DNA from: Bacteroidales bacterium
GTDB lineage: Bacteria > Bacteroidota > Bacteroidia > Bacteroidales > Marinilabiliaceae
Direction of reading: 5' to 3'
Assembly (NCBI GenBank): GCA_024401395.1
Contig: JAKSLD010000002.1
Location: forward strand, 93,939-157,938
Length of the DNA: 64,000 nucleotides
The notes beneath the pieces were generated by a model that did not search any database, was not told the DNA's origin, and saw only the letters and a program-made list of their open reading frames with translations. Of this stretch, positions 11,405-56,143 are shown one piece after another (the first letter of the stretch is position 1; each line of letters starts with the position of its first letter). The position numbers were made by a program, and so were the translations under genes.

Positions 11405-12067
11405 CTACTCCATAGGAGCGAGGTTCTTGCTGATGACAAGGCTAGCTTCGGTAGCTGCCTGAATCTGTTCCACTGTATATTCAGGGTTATATTCGCGCAG
11501 CACTATACCATCGGGCGTTATATCCATCACGCCCATCTCTGTAATAATCATATCCACCACGCCCTTAGCTGTAAGCGGGTATGTACACTGCTTAAGGATT
11601 TTAGGGCTACCCTTCTGGGTATGTTCCATAGCGACGATAACCTTCTTAGCGCCGACCACGAGATCCATAGCGCCGCCCATACCATGCACAGCCTTACCAG
11701 GGATGAGCCAGTTGGCAATATCGCCATTCTCAGCTACCTGCATGGAACCGAGGATAGTCTTATCGACGTGACCGCCACGGATGATAGTAAAAGAGAACGA
11801 GCTGTCGAAGAACATACCATCGTGCTCGATACCGGCTGGATTTCCACTTGGGTCGACTATATAATAGTTACCATCTTCGCGTAAGTTACCATCGTGAGCG
11901 CAGAGACCGATGAAGCCATTCTCGGCCTGAAGAGTAATCTTGACATCGGGACTGACATAATGAGGGATGAGAGTAGGGAGACCTATACCCAGGTTGACCA
12001 CGTCGCCATTCTCGAGTTCACGAGCCACGCGTCGAGCGATAAAATGCTTTATTTCGTCCTTGTTCAT
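11405..12067 (-). CDS. atoA: 3-oxoacid / acetoacetate CoA-transferase, beta subunit
   Basis: Subunit B of a family I CoA-transferase, 220 residues, which moves CoA between an acyl-CoA (such as acetyl- or succinyl-CoA) and an acid (such as acetoacetate or butyrate). The catalytic glutamate that forms the thioester intermediate is in 'LQAENGFIG' (Glu49), equivalent to the SENG motif of the family. The 'VVNLGIGLPTLIP' region near residue 23 is also typical. Its start is 3 bp from the stop of the alpha-subunit gene, so the two are translated together. In Bacteroidales this pair usually serves butyrate or acetoacetate metabolism; the exact acid cannot be read from the sequence. No other pathway gene (thiolase, dehydrogenase) is in the window. 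Confidence 0.92.
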   Translation of the reverse strand: MNKDEIKHFIARRVARELENGDVVNLGIGLPTLIPHYVSPDVKITLQAENGFIGLCAHDGNLREDGNYYIVDPSGNPAGIEHDGMFFDSSFSFTIIRGGHVDKTILGSMQVAENGDIANWLIPGKAVHGMGGAMDLVVGAKKVIVAMEHTQKGSPKILKQCTYPLTAKGVVDMIITEMGVMDITPDGIVLREYNPEYTVEQIQAATEASLVISKNLAPME

Positions 12068-42839: not shown

Positions 42840-45800
42840 CTAACATCTAGGGGCAAGGAGTTGTTTGGCTTTGTTCTTGTGGATGGTGATGCCTTTATGG
42901 GGGCGAAGGTGCTTGCGGCCGATGATGTCGTAGGTGATGGGAGGAGTATCTGATTGTGCCGGGGAGAGGGTCGGACTATTCGACTGGTCGGCCTTTCTGC
43001 CGGGGAGTGATGTGGGGGAAGGCTCTTGCTTTTGACCGAATATCAAGGAGAAGCGATTATGGTATAGCTTATCGGCTTCGGGGATATGGTAGGATGGAGA
43101 GAGGCGAAGGTCGGACACGACACCTGTCAGGTTATCCTTCAAGAAGACGGTGTATTGTTGATCAATAGACGATATGCCTTTAACTGAGATAACAGGAAGA
43201 GTTGTATCGCCGTCGGTGGGCATCACAGAGAAGGAGACTATTGAATCGGGGAGTTTATCCAGAGGAGGATAGAGGGCGATAGAGATTCTAGAAGAATCTT
43301 TAGATGTATATATCTGATAAGAAGCACGAGGCTGAGATTCGATTTTGTACGAATCCGACTTGTGCTTTTTTGTGCTTCCGCCGTTTCTGAAGAGAAGGAG
43401 CAGTTCATCCTTTCGGAAATCCACACCGACGGTGAGGCGCAGAACGACGATATCGCTTGAGGCGAGTGTACTTTTCAGGGATGGCTTCTGAGAATCAGCA
43501 GCCATTTGGGGGTGAAGCATCAAGACGGTACCATCTGATTCGCAATAGACGGCGAAGCCCTCGAAGGGGGCCAGGGTATCCAAAGACTCATCATCGTTAC
43601 CGGCAGCAGAGAGATCTTCATCCATGTTATAGGTATAGAAGAGATATCCGCCAGTGCCATTGAGGGAGCGATGACCGCGAGCATAAATTGAGGGAGCTAT
43701 GCGACCGTAGAGAGGGGAGACAAAATTCTTCACGCTAACAGCAAAAGGGAAAGGATTCGCCAACCAGTGCCAACCCTTAGAGAGCTGGCCTGTAATCTGA
43801 ATCCCGTTTCGAGAAGGAGAGCCACGTTGAATGATATAGTTATCATTATGACCATTAGAAGAATGCTGCACCTTACTCATAAAGAAACTGCCAGCCTTTT
43901 GAGACAGCGATTCACCATCCAGGAACGACACATTATGAAACGACCCCGATCGCGTATCATACTGTCTCAGCATATCACCATTACCGCTATTCAAAGACAA
44001 GAGATTCTCAAAAGTACCTTCTTCTGTAGCAGACCCGATATAATAGCCACGATTTCGCACAAAAGTCCTGTAAATACAAGGTTTATTACCCAGTATCCTA
44101 CCACCATAGCTAAAAGCTGGAATCTGTGTATACTTATAGTACAGATTCAGCGAACCTTGATTGACCACATTATTAGAAACCATAAGTTTGGCATCAGAAC
44201 CTATGAGAGACAACTCAGCATTTTCATCAATCTGGATATTATGAGCCTCGGCATATTGGGCATCTATGACAGGCCAATAAGCCCCCTGGATGACTGATGG
44301 AATGCGGACATCAGATTCCGAAGAAGGAATAGTATTGTCCTGCCAGTTATAAACATCGGTCCAGTCGCTATTCTTCAGTCCAGTCCATATACAGACACTC
44401 TCTGGCGACCTTCGTTGCCAAGAGAAGACAGTCGGAGTTCCTTTCATGCGCTCAGAAAGCATTGTTCCATAATTATTATAACCACTATGCAGTTCAGCGT
44501 AGATTTGAGCCCAATGGTTATTATCAGGAGAAGAAGCCACCACCCTATCACGATATGCAGACGGTGCATCGTATCTGATTATTATGCGGCACCGATCATC
44601 TGGCTGTGCGAGAGACTGCACTACCCAGTATTCAGTGGCCATATTATCCGTTCTATCCGGATGCGGAGCATTATGATACTCCACCTGCCACACAGCATCA
44701 TTATCTGGCACTACACCGAGGAACCCGAGTCGTCCAGCGTCACCCACAGGAAAATAAGACTCCTCATCAGCAGACAACGCCATTTGCATTTTACCAGAGA
44801 CGTACGATGATTTTCCGAGAACAGAGACGCCATCGGCAACCCTAAGAACATTATCAGACATATCCAATACGCCCTCTAACAGGTCCAGACGAGACAGAGA
44901 CAGATCAGAAACAGCCGTCACACCAGTAGGGTTGTTGATTCCCAAGTTCGAAATACAGACAAATTCATCAGTTGTTCGGATTAGCTGGACACCTCTACCA
45001 GACAAAAACAAGGATCCATCACCAGTTACCTCTCCCCCATTGACACACAAATCCCGATTAAGATAAAGACGACTATCCACAGACAGGTAGAGATTCGCAT
45101 TACTGATTGTCAGGCTCCCATCGATAAATGTATCTGCACAACGGAGAATGCGACTACCATCTCCAGAAATAACGACATTATTCATATGAGAGGACATAGG
45201 AAGCATTTCATAATCATCATTACCACCATATTCAACAACGCCACCAAGAGAAGAACAGAATCGAGAGAAATCGCCTTTTGGAAGAGCCTCATTAGATTGA
45301 ACCTTCAAAGTACCCTGACCTGACACAACGCCTAGATTAACACCTTTGCTATGATCCAAATCCAATACAGCCCCTTTCTGTATCTCCACAGCATTGAGAT
45401 TCAAGTCATTAAAATAATTGTCAGAAAAATGGATATTATGCTTAACAATCAGAATACCATTATTGAAAGACGAGATTGACTCTGCATCTACAAGAGTACC
45501 ATTAGAATCAGTAATTATCCAATCCGACGGAGAAAAAGTACGCAAGTCGGTCATATCATGCTTCGATTCGAAACGATATATCGATGAGGAACTTTTGCCA
45601 ACCGAATAATAGCCATCAGGAGAAGCAGGAAGAGAATAGCGGGCATGGAGAATACTGTTATCAGATATTACGCTACCACTTGTACGGGTCCAATTCTGAT
45701 TGACGGTCTTTATGACAGGGTCGTAATCTGCGGGAAGATGCGAGGGGCAAACTAAGTCACACAACATATACCCCTCTTTGATACAGATATCAGAAGAAAA

Positions 45801-48800
45801 TAATTGCAAGTAAGAATCTATTCTGCCAGATTCCTGTCTCTCATCTATTTTCAGAGTAACAGAACCAGTTGTAGAAGAGACTACATTATCCAAAGAGACC
45901 GGCATATAGTTACCATTTATCATCAGCGGGAAGCTGATAGTATTGCGTTCCTCAGCATTGATATGATACTTCAAGCCAGAATTCCAAGTAGTGCTAGACA
46001 ACGCAATACGACCAGAGCCAGAGATGGCAGCATCAGGTTTTAATTCCAAAGTATTACCACCAATATCCCAGACGCCATTTGACAGATTCAAACGTCTACC
46101 GATAACCATTGGAGATCTGAGCAATCTTTCACACAAAAGACCATCAGGGTTATCAATCTCCAAGCAATCAATCTGTCCTTCAATATTACAGATCTGACGT
46201 TCGTCGCCCGAGACAATCAGAGATTTACCAAGAATATGCGAGGCTGGTTCAGTATTCAGGGTGCGGCCACGGACAGTCAAATCATTAGACAACAGTACAT
46301 TTCCACAGCAGCGAAGAGAAGACAATTCGCCATTGGCTATATCGACCACTTGATAATCGCCTACTAAAGAAGTTTCATTACCACGATAGAGATAATCACC
46401 ATACAGTATAACATCGCCAGCAAAGGATACATCATATTTACTAGAAGAGACATCCAAAGTTGCATTCTCCTCGAGATAGATATCACCCTGCAATTTTAAC
46501 GATTCGCCATAGAGTTCAATGGTAGTGCCATTTACAATATGAAGATTACCCCAAGGGGTATGAGTCTGCAATTTGACCAGTTCGGCAGATGAGACAATTA
46601 TAGAAGAAGTCTTGCTCAAGGTCTCCATATTCGCTGAGAAGTATATTTGAGGAGACGATTTCTGAGGGCACAAGAAGTTAATCTTGGCATTATCACGCAT
46701 AGACAAAGAGCCACCCCGGATATCCAGTTTTTCAGACAAGCATAAATTGGCATTAACAGAGAGGTCGATCCAAGGCATTGAGGCACACCACAAATCGAAA
46801 GGAGACAAATCGACGGCACGAAGAGTTGCGTTGTCAGAAATACGAATCTGGGCATAAGGGCCATATTTCAACGCGCCATTAGTACCATGATTTACAGATA
46901 CTACAGCTTCATTGTCCATTCTGAGACATCCGTTGAGGCAATCAGACATCAACACAGTATTCTTATTCGAGAGCCAAATGGTGCCATCCACGGCATCAGA
47001 AAGAGAGAAAGCAGATTCAATGTCGTCATCGTAAACAAAATGCAGAGAGCCACATAATGGCTTTACATTCAGCTCAGAAAGAGAAACAGGCAGTTCGACC
47101 CTTGCCTCGCCTATAGGATTCCGCTTATTTACAGAGATAGAATGTATAGAAATATCCCGGCTAGAACCATAGAGTCGGCTTAGTTTATTATCTCCAGCGA
47201 AAGTCAACTCGCCATCCACTACCATAGAACCATTATTAATCACGTTACCATGGACATACAATACGGCATTTTCGCAACATAATATTGTACCATTATTGAC
47301 AAGATCACCTTTTATCTCATATACACCCGGAACAGAGAAATGCAGAGTATGGTTCTCATTGACAGTTACATTTTTTGCGAAAGCGAGATGGCTATTGGCC
47401 ACTTGGACAGTAGTTTCGATAGAGACATCACCTTGAAACAAGTCGGCATTTACACAGCCTATCTTGAACGGGGTACCCCTTAAGACAATATTACCGAGAT
47501 AAGAGGTATTGAAAAACTGAGTAATCTCAGGATTAGAAGACGAAGTATTGGCATAAATGAAAAGGCTATTCCCACTTTGCATGAAGCGAGAAACATCCCA
47601 ATACCTAGTCCAAGTCTTGTTGGGGCTAGTTGCATCATTATAGAATTCGATGGTTCCATCGCCCTCCACAGAAGAATTGATGAAATGAACGATATCCAAC
47701 ATAATATCCTTACGGTTCATTACAAGAGTAGCACCAGATTCTATTAACAAGTGTACGGGTTTGAACTTATAAAAATAATTTTTAGTGATTAAAGGAGTAG
47801 ATTTGATGGTATGACCAGATTTGATGATGACATTATCATCGTAGCCGATATCGGTACCCGGATAAAGAGTAGAACTATTGTCGCCCTTGATTTTCCATAT
47901 ATTTCTATCAAAACTGCCACTAGAAGAAGATATGAACGTGCGCCTTTCCGCTTCGACAGTCTTAGAACAAGTAAATTCACCTTTGGTCATACCACGGAAA
48001 ACAATCAGTGAAGACTGAGAATGAGGTTGGACGAACCATTCAGAGCCATCATAAACGACTGGGTAGAACTCCTTAGGACCATCAAAAGGCAGTATTGTAT
48101 AAGTTTCCTGTTCTGTAGACACAATAGACGGGCGGTCGGTAGATATTCTATAGTACATTCTAGCAGTTTTAGTCATATCGACATAATGTACGGCATAATG
48201 ATAGCCGACATTAGGAGCAAGAGAGACCATATTACCCTCATCCGTATAATTAACGGTAAATACCGAACTGACAGATTCATCTCCAAATAACGGTTCTCCA
48301 TCTGATAGAGTTATTCCATCTCGATACAAAGAGAACCTGACTCTATTACCTTCGACCAAAGGCATACGGACGCCACGGTCGGCAGCTTTACCATCAGTCA
48401 CAATGTGGCAATAATTGTCATCATTGATACATTTATTGACAGACAACTCGTATGCGCCTATATAGAAGTCGTTCAATCTACCAGAAAATACAGAATTGAC
48501 ATAAATGGAAGACAATGCGACCAAAGATGGTTTCTTATAGCTAAACGGTTTATCCAGAATTATATCAAGAGATTTGAATACATTGTCATCAAGCTGAGAA
48601 ATATTTGACAGTCCATTTCCTGCGATGAATCGGGCTGTACCAGTAATAGAGCCACTGACACCAATCAGATTACCTGACAGATTCAATTCTCCATCGCAAA
48701 TCAAAACATCAGCGTCATCAGATTTAGCTACAGAGACATTAACTATTGGAAATTCGCCTTGTATATGGATAGCAGAATTACGGCTACTACAAAAAGAGAC

Positions 48801-49406
48801 AGTATAATTCTCATTAGAAGGAGTAACTTTAGAATCAGAGGCTATGAAAACATTGCCGCCCAAAGAGATATTACCGCCGAATGAGAGTTCGGCATTAGAC
48901 AACGACAAATCACAATAGATTGCGACATCATTACCCACGGACAGATTACTAGATTCATTGAATATGATTTCAGCACTCTCGGAAATGGTAAGATTTGATG
49001 CTACATACATATTGCCAGAAACAACCAACGCACCACTCTCCATTATCAGATTTCCTACAGATCTATCATACAGTTCTTGAGAAGGAGATGTGATATGTAT
49101 GACACCCTGAAAATCGAGTAAGCCGTCAGTTACAGACAGTTGGGTTAAATGTCTAGCGTAGATATTGCCATTTCCACGAAGAGTTTTCACGTCAAGACGA
49201 GAATCGTAATCGAGATATAACGTTCCATCCACCGTCAGGACGTCATAAGACAACTGTTGATCGGCAGAATAAGACTCCACACGAGAAGATTCGATGACAT
49301 AAGAATTATCGGAATGTTGAGCCTTAATATTATTAAAGACCACGAATAACGAGAGTGCGGTAACAGACGTTACTCTCATAAAGAGATTAGATTTAAATAT
49401 TGTCAT
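42840..49406 (-). CDS. Giant secreted surface protein (2188 residues)
   Basis: A very large exported protein. Signal peptide about residues 10-29 ('MRVTSVTALSLFVVFNNIKAQ'). The body is mostly short beta-strand motifs of the type L-x-V-x-G-x-x-L/S-x-x-x-N ('GNISLGGNVFIASDSKV', 'GDIYLEENATLDVSSSKYDV'), which suggests a long right-handed beta-helix stalk like filamentous adhesins. The C-terminal 350 residues change character and finish with 'ITYDIIGRKHLRPHKG' plus a basic tail, resembling a type IX-type sorting domain ('YDLxGRxV...KG'). No enzymatic domain is seen. It is likely a surface adhesin or S-layer-like protein. The gene is alone on its strand, and its sense strand favours CGT/CGC arginine codons, unlike plus-strand genes downstream. 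Confidence 0.85.
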   Translation of the reverse strand: MTIFKSNLFMRVTSVTALSLFVVFNNIKAQHSDNSYVIESSRVESYSADQQLSYDVLTVDGTLYLDYDSRLDVKTLRGNGNIYARHLTQLSVTDGLLDFQGVIHITSPSQELYDRSVGNLIMESGALVVSGNMYVASNLTISESAEIIFNESSNLSVGNDVAIYCDLSLSNAELSFGGNISLGGNVFIASDSKVTPSNENYTVSFCSSRNSAIHIQGEFPIVNVSVAKSDDADVLICDGELNLSGNLIGVSGSITGTARFIAGNGLSNISQLDDNVFKSLDIILDKPFSYKKPSLVALSSIYVNSVFSGRLNDFYIGAYELSVNKCINDDNYCHIVTDGKAADRGVRMPLVEGNRVRFSLYRDGITLSDGEPLFGDESVSSVFTVNYTDEGNMVSLAPNVGYHYAVHYVDMTKTARMYYRISTDRPSIVSTEQETYTILPFDGPKEFYPVVYDGSEWFVQPHSQSSLIVFRGMTKGEFTCSKTVEAERRTFISSSSGSFDRNIWKIKGDNSSTLYPGTDIGYDDNVIIKSGHTIKSTPLITKNYFYKFKPVHLLIESGATLVMNRKDIMLDIVHFINSSVEGDGTIEFYNDATSPNKTWTRYWDVSRFMQSGNSLFIYANTSSSNPEITQFFNTSYLGNIVLRGTPFKIGCVNADLFQGDVSIETTVQVANSHLAFAKNVTVNENHTLHFSVPGVYEIKGDLVNNGTILCCENAVLYVHGNVINNGSMVVDGELTFAGDNKLSRLYGSSRDISIHSISVNKRNPIGEARVELPVSLSELNVKPLCGSLHFVYDDDIESAFSLSDAVDGTIWLSNKNTVLMSDCLNGCLRMDNEAVVSVNHGTNGALKYGPYAQIRISDNATLRAVDLSPFDLWCASMPWIDLSVNANLCLSEKLDIRGGSLSMRDNAKINFLCPQKSSPQIYFSANMETLSKTSSIIVSSAELVKLQTHTPWGNLHIVNGTTIELYGESLKLQGDIYLEENATLDVSSSKYDVSFAGDVILYGDYLYRGNETSLVGDYQVVDIANGELSSLRCCGNVLLSNDLTVRGRTLNTEPASHILGKSLIVSGDERQICNIEGQIDCLEIDNPDGLLCERLLRSPMVIGRRLNLSNGVWDIGGNTLELKPDAAISGSGRIALSSTTWNSGLKYHINAEERNTISFPLMINGNYMPVSLDNVVSSTTGSVTLKIDERQESGRIDSYLQLFSSDICIKEGYMLCDLVCPSHLPADYDPVIKTVNQNWTRTSGSVISDNSILHARYSLPASPDGYYSVGKSSSSIYRFESKHDMTDLRTFSPSDWIITDSNGTLVDAESISSFNNGILIVKHNIHFSDNYFNDLNLNAVEIQKGAVLDLDHSKGVNLGVVSGQGTLKVQSNEALPKGDFSRFCSSLGGVVEYGGNDDYEMLPMSSHMNNVVISGDGSRILRCADTFIDGSLTISNANLYLSVDSRLYLNRDLCVNGGEVTGDGSLFLSGRGVQLIRTTDEFVCISNLGINNPTGVTAVSDLSLSRLDLLEGVLDMSDNVLRVADGVSVLGKSSYVSGKMQMALSADEESYFPVGDAGRLGFLGVVPDNDAVWQVEYHNAPHPDRTDNMATEYWVVQSLAQPDDRCRIIIRYDAPSAYRDRVVASSPDNNHWAQIYAELHSGYNNYGTMLSERMKGTPTVFSWQRRSPESVCIWTGLKNSDWTDVYNWQDNTIPSSESDVRIPSVIQGAYWPVIDAQYAEAHNIQIDENAELSLIGSDAKLMVSNNVVNQGSLNLYYKYTQIPAFSYGGRILGNKPCIYRTFVRNRGYYIGSATEEGTFENLLSLNSGNGDMLRQYDTRSGSFHNVSFLDGESLSQKAGSFFMSKVQHSSNGHNDNYIIQRGSPSRNGIQITGQLSKGWHWLANPFPFAVSVKNFVSPLYGRIAPSIYARGHRSLNGTGGYLFYTYNMDEDLSAAGNDDESLDTLAPFEGFAVYCESDGTVLMLHPQMAADSQKPSLKSTLASSDIVVLRLTVGVDFRKDELLLLFRNGGSTKKHKSDSYKIESQPRASYQIYTSKDSSRISIALYPPLDKLPDSIVSFSVMPTDGDTTLPVISVKGISSIDQQYTVFLKDNLTGVVSDLRLSPSYHIPEADKLYHNRFSLIFGQKQEPSPTSLPGRKADQSNSPTLSPAQSDTPPITYDIIGRKHLRPHKGITIHKNKAKQLLAPRC

Positions 49407-49654: not shown

Positions 49655-49857
49655 CTAGATAGGTAAGATATGCTAGATAGGCAAGATAGGTAAGACAGGC
49701 TAGATAGGTAAGACAGGCAAGATAGGTAAGATATGCTAGATAGGCAAGATAGGTAAGACAGGCTAGATAGGTAAGACAGGCAAGATAGGTAAGATAGGTA
49801 AGATAGGCTAGATAGGTAAGATAGGCTAGATAGGTAAGATAGGTAAGACAGGTAAGG
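49655..49857 (+). repeat. 9-bp tandem array (TAAGATAGG type) with a 63-bp internal duplication
   Basis: Twenty-two 9-bp units and a partial one, built from five variants (CTAGATAGG, TAAGATATG, CAAGATAGG, TAAGACAGG, TAAGATAGG). Units 2-8 (49664-49726) are repeated exactly as units 9-15 (49727-49789), so the array grew by a 63-bp duplication. It lies between the giant surface gene and the efflux operon. Because 9 bp keeps frame, it gives long artificial frames on both strands (Leu-Ser-Tyr or Leu-Thr-Tyr repeats); none has gene-like support. The rest of 49516-49654 shows nothing recognisable. Confidence 0.9.
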
Positions 49858-49914
49858 GGGAGACGTGAGGCAGCGTAGACGAAGTTGAACAATCTTTGCA
49901 TTTTGTGGCTGGTG

Positions 49915-49971
49915 TGTGCGAAATCGCACATAAGAGGTGTGCGAAATCGCACATCTGTGCGAAAACGCACA
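49915..49971 (+). promoter_or_regulatory. Three tandem 16-bp palindromes, candidate activator sites
   Basis: TGTGCGAAATCGCACA at 49915-49930 and 49938-49953, and TGTGCGAAAACGCACA at 49956-49971. Arms TGTGCG/CGCACA are perfect in all three copies; starts are 23 and 18 bp apart. They sit about 91-132 bp before the start predicted from the -24/-12 element at 50028-50043, the normal distance for enhancer-binding-protein sites. The TGT-N10-ACA geometry equals that of NifA sites and is also like CRP/FNR sites, so a specific regulator cannot be named. Confidence 0.7.
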
Positions 49972-50027
49972 GTGGACGGAGAGAGCGTACAACTCTGTAA
50001 TACATTGATTAACTGATAGTTACAAAA

Positions 50028-50043
50028 TTGGCACGGTATTTGA
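50028..50043 (+). promoter_or_regulatory. Candidate sigma-54 (-24/-12) promoter of the TolC-MacA-MacB operon
   Basis: T-TGGCACG-GTAT-TTGA compared with the sigma-54 consensus YTGGCACG-N4-TTGC. The GG and G of the two elements are exactly 12 bp apart, and only the last C is replaced by A. No TAnnTTTG box is found upstream of this operon. Predicted transcription start is near 50054, about 50 nt before the tolC-like ATG. Confidence 0.6.
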
Positions 50044-50102
50044 CATAAGGGTTAGTGTCCGATTAATATTGATCGGCGAAAAGAAGAAAAAAAGAGACAG
50101 TC

Positions 50103-51587
50103 ATGATATTCAATACATTAAAATACATCGTAGCCCTTATCGTAACACTCATACTCGGGGCAAATGCTCATGCAGAGAATGGAGCAGACACATTGCGCCT
50201 GACATTGCAGGATGCAATACGCCTGGCACAGCAGAATTCTCCATCGGCACAGAGCGCACGTCATCAGTATCTGGCGGCATACTGGAACTACCGCTACTTC
50301 AAAGCAAATTATCTTCCATCGGTACGTATGACGACCTCTCCTCGCCTTAACCGTACCATCAACAGTGTCACACAGGGTGACGGTACGAATGTTTTCGTGA
50401 AGCAAAACCAGTTGGTCACAGATGTGGAGGTAGAGATCAATCAGAACATCGCCTTGACAGGCGGCTCGGTATTCCTGGGGACATCACTCACAAGAATGGA
50501 TGAGCTGGAGAAGAATACCACATCGTTCAATGCAATGCCGATACAGATAGGCTACCAGCAGAGTCTGTTTGGCTATAACTCATTGAAATGGGACAAGAAG
50601 ATGGAGCCACTAAGCTATCAGCACGCGAAGAAGTCGTACGCTGAGGCATTGGAGCTGGTATCGGCACAGACTTGCACGGTATTCTTTGACTGGATCACGG
50701 CACAGAGCAACCTGGAGATGGCCAGACTGAACTACGCATCGGCAGACACACTGTACAGGATGGCTCAAGGGAGATATGACATAGGCAGCATAAACGAGAA
50801 TGATATGCTGCAGCTGGAGATAAACAAGCTGAACGCCGAGACAAACACCATGGATGCCGAGGTGGAGCTGCAGGAGGCGACACAGACCCTATGCTACAAC
50901 CTGGGTATTCCAGAGAACACGAATATAATACTTACTATTCCAGAGGATGTACCAAGCATAGAGGTACCGATGGACAAGGCGATGGTACTGGCAATGGAGA
51001 ATGCACCAGACCCAGACTCGTATGCGCTATCGAAGATACAGAGCGAGGCTAACCTTGCATACGCGAAGGCGAATGCCGGACTGAGAGCTGACATATATGC
51101 ACGATTCGGACTATCGCAGACAGCAGGCGACGTCAAGTCGAGCTACAGAGACCTGGACCAGCAAGAGTATGTGAGTCTGACGGTATCGATACCACTACTT
51201 GACTGGGGCAGAGGGAAAGGATCGGTGAGAATGGCCCGATCAAGAAAAGACCTGACAGAGACACAGTCGAAGCGAGGAATGCAAGTATTCAGGCAAAACG
51301 TTCAGCGACTAGTGATGCAATACAATATGCAAGCCAGGAAGGTGGCGGTGGCTGACAGGACATCGACACAGGCAGAGCAGAGATACAATGTGGCAAGACA
51401 CCTGTATATAAAAGGGAGGAGCACTATACTAGACCTCAACAGTGCAATAACAGAAAAAGACTCGGCAAAGCGCAATTACATATATGCGATGAAGACCTAC
51501 TGGACATTGCACTACACGCTACGCAGCCTGACAGGCTATGACTTCCAGTTTGATATGCCACTGGCTGAGCTGCTGCCAGTTGAATAG
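50103..51587 (+). CDS. TolC-family outer-membrane efflux protein (operon 2)
   Basis: Outer-membrane channel of 494 residues. Signal peptide 'MIFNTLKYIVALIVTLILGANAHA', cleavage before E. The mature start 'DTLRLTLQDAIRLAQQNSPSAQSARHQYLAAYWNYR' and the second repeat near residue 290 are standard for the family; 'VSIPLLDWGRGKGSVRMARSR' is the typical turn segment. It is first in an operon with a MacA-like adaptor, an ATPase and an FtsX-type permease, so it is the outer-membrane component of a MacAB-type exporter. A 147-bp gap made largely of an 8-bp tandem array separates it from the adaptor gene. Compared with the 14-37 kb genes it uses AGA/AGG for arginine more often. Confidence 0.92.
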   Translation: MIFNTLKYIVALIVTLILGANAHAENGADTLRLTLQDAIRLAQQNSPSAQSARHQYLAAYWNYRYFKANYLPSVRMTTSPRLNRTINSVTQGDGTNVFVKQNQLVTDVEVEINQNIALTGGSVFLGTSLTRMDELEKNTTSFNAMPIQIGYQQSLFGYNSLKWDKKMEPLSYQHAKKSYAEALELVSAQTCTVFFDWITAQSNLEMARLNYASADTLYRMAQGRYDIGSINENDMLQLEINKLNAETNTMDAEVELQEATQTLCYNLGIPENTNIILTIPEDVPSIEVPMDKAMVLAMENAPDPDSYALSKIQSEANLAYAKANAGLRADIYARFGLSQTAGDVKSSYRDLDQQEYVSLTVSIPLLDWGRGKGSVRMARSRKDLTETQSKRGMQVFRQNVQRLVMQYNMQARKVAVADRTSTQAEQRYNVARHLYIKGRSTILDLNSAITEKDSAKRNYIYAMKTYWTLHYTLRSLTGYDFQFDMPLAELLPVE

Positions 51588-51734: not shown

Positions 51735-52988
51735 ATGGACATTAAAATTGCAAAGAGGCCTTGGTATATTCGCAACAAGTATTCGATAATGCTTGGAGCA
51801 GTAGTGTTGGGACTAATAATATATGCTATCGTGCTTTCTTTTGGGCCTCGTACGTTCAAGGTAAACGGACAAGACACACGCATAGCGAAGGTGGAAGATG
51901 CGTTCTTCATGGAGTATGTGGATGCAGAAGGCGTGGTGAAGCCGATATCGACGATACGCATCAATGCCCTTGAGAGCGGCACGCTAGCCAAGATAGTGGC
52001 AGAAGACGGAGCTATGTTGCGCAAGGGAGACTCGATACTATTCCTTGAGAATGTGGAGCTGATGCGTACGATAGACGACGAGAGAGACGAGTGGCAGAAG
52101 CAGTACAACCTGCTGCAAGAGCAGAAGCTCTCGCTAGAGCAGAAAGTGATCTCGCTGAGACAGCAGACCCTGGATGCGCAATATGAGCTATCGCGACTAG
52201 ACAAAGACCTTGCCATCAACAGAGAAGAGTTCAAGATGGGCATAGTCACCAAGGCACAGCTAGACATGAAAGAATCGGAATATACATACAGACATCAGAA
52301 GACCGAACTTCAGCTACAGAGCCTGCTACACGACTCCGCAGCCACAGTAATACGCCAGAAGCTACTTGAGTCCGATTTCCAGAGAGTAGACAAGAGGTAT
52401 GAGAGGAGCAGAGAGAGGATGGAGAACATGGTAGTGAGAGCTACGACAGACGGACAGTTCAGCTTTGGCGGAGCCACACTCGGTCAGCGCATCATGGCAG
52501 GAGAAGCCATAGGCGAGATAAAAGTGATGACATCGTACAAGATGAGCATACAGCTCAACGAATACTACATAGACAGAGTATCATCCGGTTTACCAGCCCG
52601 CATAACCTATCAGGACCAGAAATACGAGCTAAAGGTAAGCAGAGTCGTACCAGAGGTGAAGAATCACTCATTCGAGGTAGAGCTAGTCTTCACAGGCGAT
52701 ATGCCAAGCAATGTAAGACTAGGCAAGAGCTACAGAGTGCAAGTAGAGCTAGGGCAGCAAGAGAAGGCGACGGTGATACCAAGAGGCGACTTCTACGCTA
52801 CGACAGGCGGCAAATGGATCTTCAAGCTCACATCAGACGGCAAGAGAGCAGTGAAGGTACCAGTGACCATAGGGCGGCAGAATCCTAAGCAGTATGAGGT
52901 ACTTGACGGACTAGAGCCAGGAGACGAGGTAATACTCACCGGTTACTCCAACTACGGAGAAGCAGAAGAATTGAAAATCGACGACTGA
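51735..52988 (+). CDS. MacA/HlyD-type periplasmic adaptor (operon 2)
   Basis: 417 residues. Membrane anchor at about 15-35 ('YSIMLGAVVLGLIIYAIVLSF'). First barrel/lipoyl half 'RINALESGTLAKIVAEDGAMLRKGDSILFLENVEL' (about 76-110), long coiled-coil hairpin (about 110-230), second half 'VVRATTDGQFSFGGATLGQRIMAGEAIGEIKVM', then a membrane-proximal beta domain with 'TVIPRGDFYATTGGKWIF...KVPVTIGRQNPKQYEVLDGLEPGDEVI'. This matches periplasmic adaptors that work with MacB-type ABC pumps. The gene ends 36 bp before the ATPase gene. Confidence 0.92.
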   Translation: MDIKIAKRPWYIRNKYSIMLGAVVLGLIIYAIVLSFGPRTFKVNGQDTRIAKVEDAFFMEYVDAEGVVKPISTIRINALESGTLAKIVAEDGAMLRKGDSILFLENVELMRTIDDERDEWQKQYNLLQEQKLSLEQKVISLRQQTLDAQYELSRLDKDLAINREEFKMGIVTKAQLDMKESEYTYRHQKTELQLQSLLHDSAATVIRQKLLESDFQRVDKRYERSRERMENMVVRATTDGQFSFGGATLGQRIMAGEAIGEIKVMTSYKMSIQLNEYYIDRVSSGLPARITYQDQKYELKVSRVVPEVKNHSFEVELVFTGDMPSNVRLGKSYRVQVELGQQEKATVIPRGDFYATTGGKWIFKLTSDGKRAVKVPVTIGRQNPKQYEVLDGLEPGDEVILTGYSNYGEAEELKIDD

Positions 52989-53024: not shown

Positions 53025-53699
53025 ATGATAGAGCTATCACAAATTCAGAAGATCTTCCGCATGGAAGAGGTAGAGACATGGGCGGTCAACAATGTAGACC
53101 TGACGATAAAAGAGGGCGAGTTTGTAGCCATTATGGGGCCATCAGGCTGCGGCAAGTCGACCCTGCTCAATATACTAGGACTCCTTGACACGCCGACAAG
53201 CGGAGAATACAAGCTACAAGGAGTGGACGTAAGCAATATGAACGAGACAGACAGGACAAAGCTACGCAGAGGCGTGATAGGCTTCGTGTTCCAGTCGTTC
53301 AACCTTATAGACGAGCTATCGGTATATGAGAACATCGAGTTGCCATTGCTCTACATGGGCAAGAGTGCCAAAGAGAGAAAGCAGCTAGTAGAAGAAGCCA
53401 TGAAGAGGATGAACATAGAGCACAGGCGCGACCACTTCCCCGCACAACTCTCGGGCGGACAGCAACAGAGAGTAGCCATAGCGCGAGCAGTGGTATCAAG
53501 TCCGAAGATAATACTAGCCGACGAGCCGACAGGAAACCTAGACTCAAAGAACGGACTAGAAGTGATGAACCTACTGACAGAGCTCAACAAAGAAGGCACG
53601 ACCATAGTGATGGTAACACACTCGCAGAGAGATGCCGGGTATGCGTCACGAGTGATAAGACTCTTTGACGGACAGATAGTATCATCGGTGGAGATGTAG
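53025..53699 (+). CDS. ABC transporter ATPase, MacB/LolD type (operon 2)
   Basis: 224-residue cytoplasmic ATPase. Walker A GPSGCGKST (38-46), Q-loop 'GFVFQSFNL' (86-94), signature LSGGQ (142-146), Walker B LADEPTG (164-170) and the H-switch 'MVTHSQ'. The 'DEPTGNLDSKNG' segment is typical of LolD/MacB-type ATPases that drive FtsX-fold permeases rather than ABC-2 pumps. It is the partner of the permease that starts 38 bp later. This contrasts with operon 1, which has permeases without an ATPase. Confidence 0.96.
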   Translation: MIELSQIQKIFRMEEVETWAVNNVDLTIKEGEFVAIMGPSGCGKSTLLNILGLLDTPTSGEYKLQGVDVSNMNETDRTKLRRGVIGFVFQSFNLIDELSVYENIELPLLYMGKSAKERKQLVEEAMKRMNIEHRRDHFPAQLSGGQQQRVAIARAVVSSPKIILADEPTGNLDSKNGLEVMNLLTELNKEGTTIVMVTHSQRDAGYASRVIRLFDGQIVSSVEM

Positions 53700-53727: not shown

Positions 53728-53737
53728 GTTGAATAAT

Positions 53738-56143
53738 ATGATATTACATTACATAAAGATTGCGATTCGCAATTTAAAGAAATACAAAGTACAGACAGCC
53801 ATCAGTGTCATATCAATGGCAGTGGGAGTCACGCTTATGGCCGTGATACACTCGATGCTATTGGTAGTGCTAGAGGTAAGTTCGCTTGAGAGGAATCCCG
53901 ACTACAACCAGATACACTGGGTGCAAGGAACTGTATGCCGTCAGCCAGTGTTTCTGCAGAAGTTGGAAAACAGAGAATTCAAGTCGATACGCGACTACTG
54001 CCCACTGCCAGACCATACATTTACGATGGAGGTCTACCTAGAAGACAATGAAGAGCAGGAGAAGTATGTGCGAGGGAGGGTGCTAAGTGTGCCGCAAAAG
54101 ACGTTCGATTTCTACCACTTCATATCTCCGATAACAGGAGAGCCATTGAAGAAGCTAGAAGACAATACGGTGATAGTGACCGAGAACTTTGCCATGCAGA
54201 CATACGGGACACTAGACGTAGTGGGCAGACAAGTAAGGCTTTGGGATTACACACAAAAGTGGAATGAGCAAGAAGGAAGATACGATATAATACCCAACGA
54301 ATGGAAGTCGTTCGTCATCTCGGACGTACTTCATACCAATATGAGTGACAACTTCCACAATGCCGACATATACAAGAAACAAGACGACTATCTGTGCCAA
54401 ACGTACAAGATACTGCTGATACCCAATGAAGGGTGCCAGTACCAGCAGCTATGTGACGATATATTGCCACTAGCAGAAGAGCTGCTAGGTGCGGAACATG
54501 GGACCAGCATAGGCTATCTGCCTTGGAGCTACCACAGCTATGAGAACGGAGATGACTGGCAGCCAGATATGTATCATACGATAAAGGCGATATGCTATAC
54601 AGTAGTAGGGCTCATACTATTAGCGGCATTTCTAGGCTATATAAGGATGCAGACACAGCTCTTCTGGATAAGGCAGAGAGAGATAGCACTGAGAACCGTA
54701 GTGGGCGGGCAGATGAAGTCGCTCTTCGGGCTATTCTTCACAGAGATAGGGCTAGTAATGCTAATGACACTCGGCACCTCCCTGCTGATATGCCATATAA
54801 TGCGCGAGCTGCTATATGAGAGTGTGACGATAGGCTTAAGGACAGGCGGTATGCTATGGCAGATGAACGACTTTGAGCAATATGCGGCAGTTGTAATTGT
54901 GGCATTGACAATAGTGAGTATGCTCTTTGTGATGCTAGTGGTATGGCAGATAAGACAATCGCAGACAGGACTAGCGCTACAGATGAAGCCACAACGCAGT
55001 CACGCCATGCGCAGGATAGCCATAGGCTTCCAGATGATACTATCGACGATATTCATAGCAGTATCATTGATGCTATACGACGCAGTGCTAGATCGCATAA
55101 CCAAGGGACAAGAGGGATATAATGTGGAGAAATACAGAGAGAGCTTTGTATGCTCCATTACAAGCGGGGAGAACAACTTCTATGACAAAATGGAGAGATT
55201 GAAGAAGATGGACAATATAGAAGGCATTGTACCATGGTATAGAAGCAATTCGAACTATAATCCAGAAGAAGAGATAGAAGAGCTGAAATACTACTTTATA
55301 TACACGCAAAAAGACGATGAGCTGGTGAAGTATCTGGATATAGAGATAACCCCTGTACCATGCTCGGCCAGCAAAGAGAACACGGTATACGTATCAGAGA
55401 AGATGTATGATGCCATCACCAAGGGAGGGACACAAGCTGCACCAGCTATAAGGATGTTTAGTTTATATGATTATGAAACAAATCAATTTCTGGAGCCAGA
55501 ATATGCGTATGTGGCAGGCACGTTCAAGTCGATACCATCTGAACGGACCAGTATGCAGACAGTGATATGGAACCGACCATACAATACGGCGACCTATCTT
55601 GTCAGTGCCAAGAAAGGCGAGACAGAAAATGTGCGAAAAGCACTGACAGAGTTACGCGACGAAGGGTTGGCATCGGTACCGAAAGATCCAGTGCAGCAAG
55701 TGAAGAAGGCAAATGACACGGGAGAAGAGATGCTATTTACGGTAGTGTATACTATATTCATACTCACGGTTATCAATATAATAAGCACCTGCTCGTCGCT
55801 CTACTCAGCCATATCGCTTGATGTGCGAAGGAGGAAAAAAGAGGTGCAGCTACGCAAGATAAACGGAGCATTGGCAAGAGATATATTCAAGATATTCTCG
55901 AAAGAATATATGATACTGCTGATAGTATGTTTTGTAGCAGCATTGCCACTGAGCTACATTGCCGGAATAGTAGGATCGCAAGAGCTGAATATCAGTCAGA
56001 GCAACTTTGAAGATGTAATCTGGATGTTTATCTGGAACTATATGAAAGTAGCCGGACTGATAACCATAATAACGGTACTGACGGTAGGCGGCAAGATATG
56101 GGGCATAATGCACGTAAAGCCAGTGGAAGCCCTGAAAGAGTGA
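53738..56143 (+). CDS. FtsX-fold ABC permease, two-module (MacB-like) (operon 2)
   Basis: 801-residue inner-membrane protein with about eight membrane helices in two modules. Each module has a leading helix, a periplasmic MacB_PCD-like domain and an FtsX core: first helix about 18-40, core helices about 285-400, second leading helix near 430, and last core helices about 660-790. 'RQREIALRTVVGGQMKSLFGLFFTE' and 'RRRKKEVQLRKINGALARDIFKIFSKE' are the coupling-helix segments that contact the ATPase. The ATG at 53738 was preferred to the TTG at 53729. Bacteroidota often fuse the two halves this way, so it can act as one pump unit. Substrates might be lipoproteins, peptides or antibiotics. It converges with the unknown membrane gene (2 bp between stops). 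Confidence 0.93.
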   Translation: MILHYIKIAIRNLKKYKVQTAISVISMAVGVTLMAVIHSMLLVVLEVSSLERNPDYNQIHWVQGTVCRQPVFLQKLENREFKSIRDYCPLPDHTFTMEVYLEDNEEQEKYVRGRVLSVPQKTFDFYHFISPITGEPLKKLEDNTVIVTENFAMQTYGTLDVVGRQVRLWDYTQKWNEQEGRYDIIPNEWKSFVISDVLHTNMSDNFHNADIYKKQDDYLCQTYKILLIPNEGCQYQQLCDDILPLAEELLGAEHGTSIGYLPWSYHSYENGDDWQPDMYHTIKAICYTVVGLILLAAFLGYIRMQTQLFWIRQREIALRTVVGGQMKSLFGLFFTEIGLVMLMTLGTSLLICHIMRELLYESVTIGLRTGGMLWQMNDFEQYAAVVIVALTIVSMLFVMLVVWQIRQSQTGLALQMKPQRSHAMRRIAIGFQMILSTIFIAVSLMLYDAVLDRITKGQEGYNVEKYRESFVCSITSGENNFYDKMERLKKMDNIEGIVPWYRSNSNYNPEEEIEELKYYFIYTQKDDELVKYLDIEITPVPCSASKENTVYVSEKMYDAITKGGTQAAPAIRMFSLYDYETNQFLEPEYAYVAGTFKSIPSERTSMQTVIWNRPYNTATYLVSAKKGETENVRKALTELRDEGLASVPKDPVQQVKKANDTGEEMLFTVVYTIFILTVINIISTCSSLYSAISLDVRRRKKEVQLRKINGALARDIFKIFSKEYMILLIVCFVAALPLSYIAGIVGSQELNISQSNFEDVIWMFIWNYMKVAGLITIITVLTVGGKIWGIMHVKPVEALKE

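Follow-up and report, generated by a model that had tools for sequence, protein, structure and literature searches.

A candidate sigma-54 enhancer of repeated dyads before an FtsX-type efflux operon of a Bacteroidales bacterium and its putative NtrC-type activator

To our knowledge, few sigma-54 activators of the Bacteroidales have known targets. The closest described regulators are NtrC, AtoC and ZraR, which the candidate activator of this report (P0003) resembles in its receiver, sigma-54 AAA+ and Fis-type helix-turn-helix (HTH) domains, in the kinase gene adjacent to its own and in the dyads found upstream of a -24/-12 element. On the transport side, the closest systems are MacAB-TolC and DarBCD (the darobactin exporter), where, as at the present locus, an outer-membrane channel, an adaptor, an ATPase and an FtsX-type permease are encoded in one gene run. 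A survey of sigma-54 regulons from 2025, in its available parts, lists Bacteroidia among the groups in which COG0577 permeases are enriched, presents itself as the first to connect sigma-54 with FtsX-type systems and also describes an enrichment of chaperone genes in Bacteroidota (PMC12316311); the locus described here shares with that prediction both the target class (COG0577, FtsX-type permease) and the sigma factor. Additionally, sigma-54 promoters appear in the available part of a Flavobacterium transcript map, which considers it possible that three proteins with PF00158 are separate activators (PMC9723704). The locus studied here lies in the window, the whole stretch of 64,000 nucleotides that was analysed, which belongs to a genome of 3,303,652 bases in 47 contigs (the own genome, G000). 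Judged from its sequence, it very likely holds a genuine sigma-54 unit that is conserved and whose activator can be identified.

The efflux operon and its upstream region

The four genes of the operon are read from the plus strand in the order TolC-type protein, adaptor, ABC ATPase and FtsX-type permease, and are preceded by three dyads and a -24/-12 element:

49915..49930, no strand: dyad 1, TGTGCGAAATCGCACA, proposed activator site, -114 from TGGC
49938..49953, no strand: dyad 2, same sequence as dyad 1 (TGTGCGAAATCGCACA), proposed activator site, -91 from TGGC
49956..49971, no strand: dyad 3, TGTGCGAAAACGCACA, proposed activator site, -73 from TGGC
50028..50045, plus strand: -24/-12 element TTGGCACGGTATTTGACA, that is TTGGCACG-N4-TTGACA, with TGGC from 50029 and the -12 G at 50042
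50103..51587, plus strand: TolC-type outer membrane efflux protein P0001, 494 aa (PF02321, 135.4 bits)
51735..52988, plus strand: periplasmic adaptor (HlyD/MacA-like), 417 aa (PF13437, 30 bits, cut-off 22.2)
53025..53699, plus strand: ABC ATPase (MacB/LolD-like), 224 aa (PF00005, 133.6 bits)
53738..56143, plus strand: FtsX-type permease, about 801 aa (PF02687, 41.4 bits), with an alternative TTG start at 53729

The preliminary description had named this a TolC-MacA-MacB operon. It is an efflux operon, but the MacB part of the name is loose because the ATPase and the permease are separate genes and the MacB equivalog NF007826 (ATPase fused to permease) was missed, the ATPase gene scoring 235.9 bits against a cut-off of 966 and the permease gene having no match to it among the matches listed. 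On the minus strand, a reading frame of 2188 aa (42840-49406) runs divergently from the operon and has no Pfam match at E 0.001. Directly upstream of the dyads lies a 200-bp tandem repeat (49657-49856) that is 9-bp based, with a best period of 63 at 94% matches and a unit like AGATAGGTAAGATAGGCA.

Three 16-bp dyads, two of them identical and with starts 18-23 bp apart, had been described before and were confirmed at 49915, 49938 and 49956; they follow the pattern TGTGCG-N4-CGCACA with start-to-start distances of 23 and then 18 bp. The sigma-54-type element reported with them is also present, with a GG-N10-GA spacing that corresponds to the GG-N10-GC type of sigma-54 promoters, and 57 bases lie between its end and the ATG of the TolC-type gene. 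Counted from the -12 G, the transcript would start near 50054. The distance of 90-130 bp downstream given earlier fits this predicted start and not the -24 element, whose TGGC begins 114, 91 and 73 bp after the starts of dyads 1 to 3. A TAnnTTTG box, which had been named as a finding that would count against the proposal, is absent from both strands of 49860-50110. With up to two mismatches allowed, the dyad count of the window is in itself not unusual (four, against a mean of 1.76 in 100 shuffles, 10 of which reach four); the significance of the dyads lies in their exactness, clustering and common spacing.

Copies and conservation of the dyads

The exact dyad occurs at five places in the own genome, three in the window and two on contig C8, and the reversed control pattern at none. 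The C8 cluster, whose third dyad is one mismatch off, is followed by the -24/-12 element TTGGCATGCTTTTTGACA and precedes P0002, a separate FtsX/MacB-type permease gene (PF02687 and PF12704). Both clusters are spaced alike (23 bp, 18 bp and then 73 bp from the last start to TGGC), and the 55 bases before the promoter are identical at 21 positions only, which argues that they are not a fresh duplication. The single target operon proposed earlier, the TolC operon, is thus kept, but the permease gene on C8 is to be added as a second predicted target. The promoter pattern TTGGCAYG-N4-TTGAC has three exact places in the own genome, one directly downstream of each dyad cluster and one within a reading frame; at one mismatch it has 20 places on both strands versus 4 for the control. 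Further targets were also sought among dyads with at most two mismatches, but this search was dropped as too noisy (65 forward places genome-wide versus 37 for the reversed control).

Several other sites were seen in the own genome. Single dyads with one mismatch occur, for example, at C10:72731 and C33:11293. A near-copy of the window promoter, TTGGCACGGTATTTGATAT, lies on C11 (L023, position 3663) before a gene for a secreted-looking protein of 171 aa, with no exact 6-bp dyad upstream among the kinds scanned. Elements of the form TTGGCACG-N4-TTGATAT lie on C15 (L026, position 3140) and C1 (L024, position 3419) before a DnaK-type and a GroEL-type gene respectively, both named by eye from their translations; TCTGCCA words are repeated near these elements, and one TCTGCCA-N3-TGGCAGA dyad precedes the DnaK-type gene.

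A double-dyad pattern with a gap of 4-16 (start distances of 16-28 allowed) was searched in 71 genomes of the family and matched six, in four of which (the own genome, G065, G066 and G067) the clusters precede efflux genes. The matches in G065, G066 and G067 stand before the orthologous TolC operon, and G065 and G066 carry them before an FtsX permease gene as well; those in G040 and G055 look like chance judging by sequence and were left uncounted. In G064, whose TolC is 50% identical, no TGCG-N4-CGCA dyad was found in the 11 kb examined. A scan of public genomes for GTGCG-N4-CGCAC twice at 23 bp gave 52 stretches: 29 from one Magnetomicrobium assembly, 15 others from outside the Bacteroidales (one of them, in Hymenobacter, covering the start of a reading frame) and eight labelled Bacteroidales, Bacteroidaceae, Bacteroidia or Bacteroidetes. 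Five of these eight were contigs of G065, G066 and G067 again, two were new (L061 and L096) and one (L090) was set aside since no efflux gene is evident after it when its translations are inspected by eye.

Together with a site in G060 and a further one in G065, both located through their proteins and not by the dyad pattern, a comparison set of 11 promoters from seven genomes was obtained, which includes the public genomes L061 and L096. The expectation that dyads and -24/-12 elements would be kept before orthologous operons was borne out in this set. A -24/-12 match follows the dyads within 220 bp in all 11 promoters, and the starts of dyads 1 and 2 are separated by 23 bp in every case, a distance imposed by the search pattern for L061 and L096. 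A third dyad (at most three mismatches) starts 18 bp further on in eight promoters and 28 and 29 bp further on in L061 and L096; one G065 promoter stops at two. Dyad 1 begins 114 bp before TGGC in six promoters and 96-127 bp before it in the remaining five.

The double-dyad pattern could also be a mobile or structural repeat devoid of regulatory role, as the assembly of Candidatus Magnetomicrobium cryptolimnococcus XYC might suggest, an unrelated genome where its 29 stretches are scattered as if they belonged to a dispersed palindromic repeat. This is exceedingly improbable for the present dyads, whose exact copies in the own genome are confined to two promoter regions of equal spacing with diverged intervening sequence (21/55).

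The candidate activator P0003 and its kinase

The organism has rpoN (PF04552, one match, 177.4 bits), as the earlier proposal presupposed, and a PF00158 profile search of its genome gave four strong matches, all enhancer-binding proteins (EBPs), and six weak ones. The preliminary description had also placed an NtrC-type activator outside the window, and the following gene is the likely candidate for it:

C6:27380-28747, minus strand, outside the window: P0003, NtrC-type response regulator

P0003 exceeds the cut-offs for a receiver (PF00072, 72.9 bits), a sigma-54 AAA+ domain (PF00158, 212.3 bits) and a Fis-type HTH (PF02954, 49.6 bits). It contains GENGSGKD, which we take to be its Walker A motif, and GAYTGA, a conservative variant of GAFTGA that we likewise assign to the sigma-54 loop. 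A histidine kinase gene lies directly after it, as expected of a partner kinase (PF02518, 97.2 bits, with no HisKA-type Pfam match among the matches listed).

Among 15 genomes of the genus, P0003 orthologues of 67-100% identity occur in the own genome, G060, G065, G066 and G067, the sole other match at E 1e-120 being that of G061 (47%). TolC (P0001) orthologues of 73-100% identity occur in the same five genomes; elsewhere in the genus TolC is 50% identical in G064 and 29-34% in five others, and four have none at E 1e-20. This co-occurrence (five of five versus none of ten) is suggestive, the genomes being related and not independent and also mostly incomplete (74-99%). Gene order in relatives points the same way: in L061 a P0003-type gene and the TolC operon are oriented divergently and the gap that separates them holds the dyads, L096 has the same layout with dyads between, its locus ending after 21 residues of the regulator, and in G060 a P0003-type gene lies 1.8 kb from the operon with one gene between. 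In the own genome, P0003 is encoded on a contig other than that of the operon, and the 16 kb around its gene hold no TGCG-N4-CGCA dyad, so that neither autoregulation nor adjacency can be used as evidence there.

It is highly probable, in our judgement, that the dyads are the sigma-54 enhancer of this tripartite ABC efflux operon, bound by P0003 after activation by its kinase, and that P0003 also drives the FtsX permease gene on C8. The computed elements of this reading are the dyads, the -24/-12 elements, their spacing and conservation, rpoN, the co-occurrence and the adjacency. From these we infer binding, phosphorylation, looping, the start site and activation, which would proceed as follows. 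The kinase encoded directly after P0003 would phosphorylate it, and the active protein would assemble on the three dyads, loop to the RNA polymerase-sigma-54 bound at the -24/-12 element and spend ATP to open the promoter near 50054; the separate permease gene on C8 would be driven by the same protein. At the level of sequence, the earlier interpretation is supported on the computable checks that it named.

Another EBP of the own genome (of the L018, L019 or L020 type) might read the dyads instead, with P0003 having its targets elsewhere. The four strong PF00158 matches provide such candidates, and a MacB/FtsX operon lies next to the EBP of L019; L019 was set aside as the reader since that operon carries dyads of its own that differ (TGTAAAG..CTTTACA). 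Moreover, it is the P0003-type gene, not the others, that adjoins the dyads in L061 and L096 and lies 1.8 kb off in G060, and the five-genome profile is common to P0003 and the operon, which makes another EBP a very unlikely reader.

The L019 dyads are two in number (11779-11817) and lie within a second EBP/kinase system beside the MacB/FtsX operon, and one dyad of this type accompanies such a system at L127 (position 7188). The genus thus seems, from these words, to have another dyad word for another activator. A simple hydropathy scan found no hydrophobic segment in the kinases of five genus members, in contrast to seven kinases from other genera, where such segments lie near the N-terminus. 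The signal of the window-type system may accordingly be an intracellular one.

Relatives in other genera, recognition helix and known systems

Relatives of P0003 at E 1e-120 or better are found in 49 of the 71 family genomes, and 20 EBP regions of other genera were sampled. In 19 of them the EBP gene and a gene for a MacB-type ATPase point away from each other; the contig of the 20th begins too near the EBP. The 19 gaps contain 43 TGTNCG-N4-CGNACA dyads (at most two mismatches), distributed over 18 gaps, versus 1.54 on average and at most 6 in 200 letter shuffles. A -24/-12 pattern is directed toward the ATPase gene in 14 of the 19 gaps versus 0.185 in shuffles. Seven of these 14 promoters have a dyad start at -90 to -92 relative to TGGC, comparable to the middle dyad of the window at -91, and three have one at -80 or -81; the sole upstream dyad is at -68, -30 or -136 in three more, and none was found in the last. 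The 20 EBPs of other genera have GAFTDA in the sigma-54 contact loop, for which we assume the usual name GAFTGA, and those of the window-type branch have GAYTGA or GAFTGA.

These regularities bear on two other explanations. The dyads could be operators of an unrelated repressor or activator (of TetR or MarR type, for example), the -24/-12 likeness being irrelevant; palindromes of this size are common operators, and the start site is unmapped. This explanation keeps very little probability against a -24/-12 element after the dyads in all 11 window-type promoters, its recurrence in the 14 gaps of other genera and the lack of a TAnnTTTG box in the region. Alternatively, P0003 could bind the dyads and mainly repress, or act through a promoter other than the -24/-12 element. 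Many gaps of other genera do carry dyads downstream of the promoter as well, near the ATPase gene (often two), and the window is without these. In the 11 window-type promoters the dyads stand 61-127 bp upstream of TGGC, which is the usual enhancer range, and both repression and action through another promoter are highly improbable accounts of them. Activation from the dyads through sigma-54 stays the preferred reading.

The relatives differ in the recognition helix and in the operator. Six window-type EBPs have the helix GI[TS]R[YF][AT]LYRK, and the 20 EBPs of other genera replace Tyr/Phe by Thr (19) or Ala (1) and have Arg at the last place of the helix. The changed residue follows an Arg that is aligned with Fis residue 85, which in Fis presumably contacts guanine. 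Base 4 of the half-site is G in 59 of 62 window-type half-sites, which were chosen by likeness to TGTGCG, and in the 86 half-sites of other genera, where it was left free, it is T in 46, C in 17, A in 17 and G in 6. The order-level set, with base 4 free for all loci, consisted of 72 of 247 genomes with matches to P0003 at E 1e-128 (78 rows), of which 60 loci were examined (rows 2-65 minus G197, G041, G300 and G132) for dyads with at most one mismatch within 420 bp. Dyads are present at all eight loci with aromatic-type EBPs, where 21 of 28 half-sites carry G and seven carry T, versus 33 of the 49 loci with Thr/Ala EBPs, where 2 of 72 half-sites carry G; three EBPs with other residues have no dyad. 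G occupies at least half of the half-sites in 8/8 aromatic versus 2/33 Thr/Ala loci (Fisher p 4.7e-7, relatedness ignored). Six of the eight aromatic loci yielded a promoter, whose dyads stand at -90 to -92 and at -69 to -71; in six of the eight, the EBP gene has a gene of TolC, adaptor or FtsX type as a neighbour. All 14 aromatic EBPs of the tree form one clade, with the HTH included or left out (support 0.98 and 0.92 respectively), which indicates a single historical change in which neighbouring helix residues were included, so that the causal residue is not proven.

We tentatively propose, with the balance tipped slightly against it, that an NtrC-type family of the Bacteroidales controls FtsX-type ABC efflux operons through TGTNCG-N4-CGNACA, and that one branch switched both its helix (Thr/Ala to Tyr/Phe after the conserved Arg) and base 4 (to G), its kinase in the genus of the window having no membrane segments. 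If true, a protein/DNA specificity switch of natural origin would separate two parallel sigma-54 efflux circuits. One activator with a proposed operator and targets, and with relatives where helix and operator differ together, makes the code directly testable.

Compared with NtrC, AtoC and ZraR, the P0003 system differs in its proposed target, an FtsX-type efflux operon, and in its proposed operator, TGTGCG-N4-CGCACA. P0003 also misses the cut-offs of the NtrC-family equivalogs, the best being the PrsR type (TIGR02915, 392.1 of 502.6), followed by AtoC (344.9 of 714) and ZraR (331.6 of 760). Compared with MacAB-TolC and DarBCD, the operon has its ATPase and permease in separate genes, and the shortfall against the MacB equivalog given above is matched by those against DarD (291.1 of 375) and DarC (153.3 of 450). 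No paper on these dyads or on the P0003 regulator was among the matches listed in a full-text search of open-licence literature, and the available parts of the sigma-54 survey name no activator or operator for COG0577 permeases, both of which are proposed here (PMC12316311). The kind of system is textbook; the regulon, the operator sequence and the correspondence of helix with operator look new within the open-licence literature searched. It would help to find out under which circumstances FtsX-type efflux systems are turned on in such bacteria, a class of systems that the available parts of that survey link to sigma-54 (PMC12316311).
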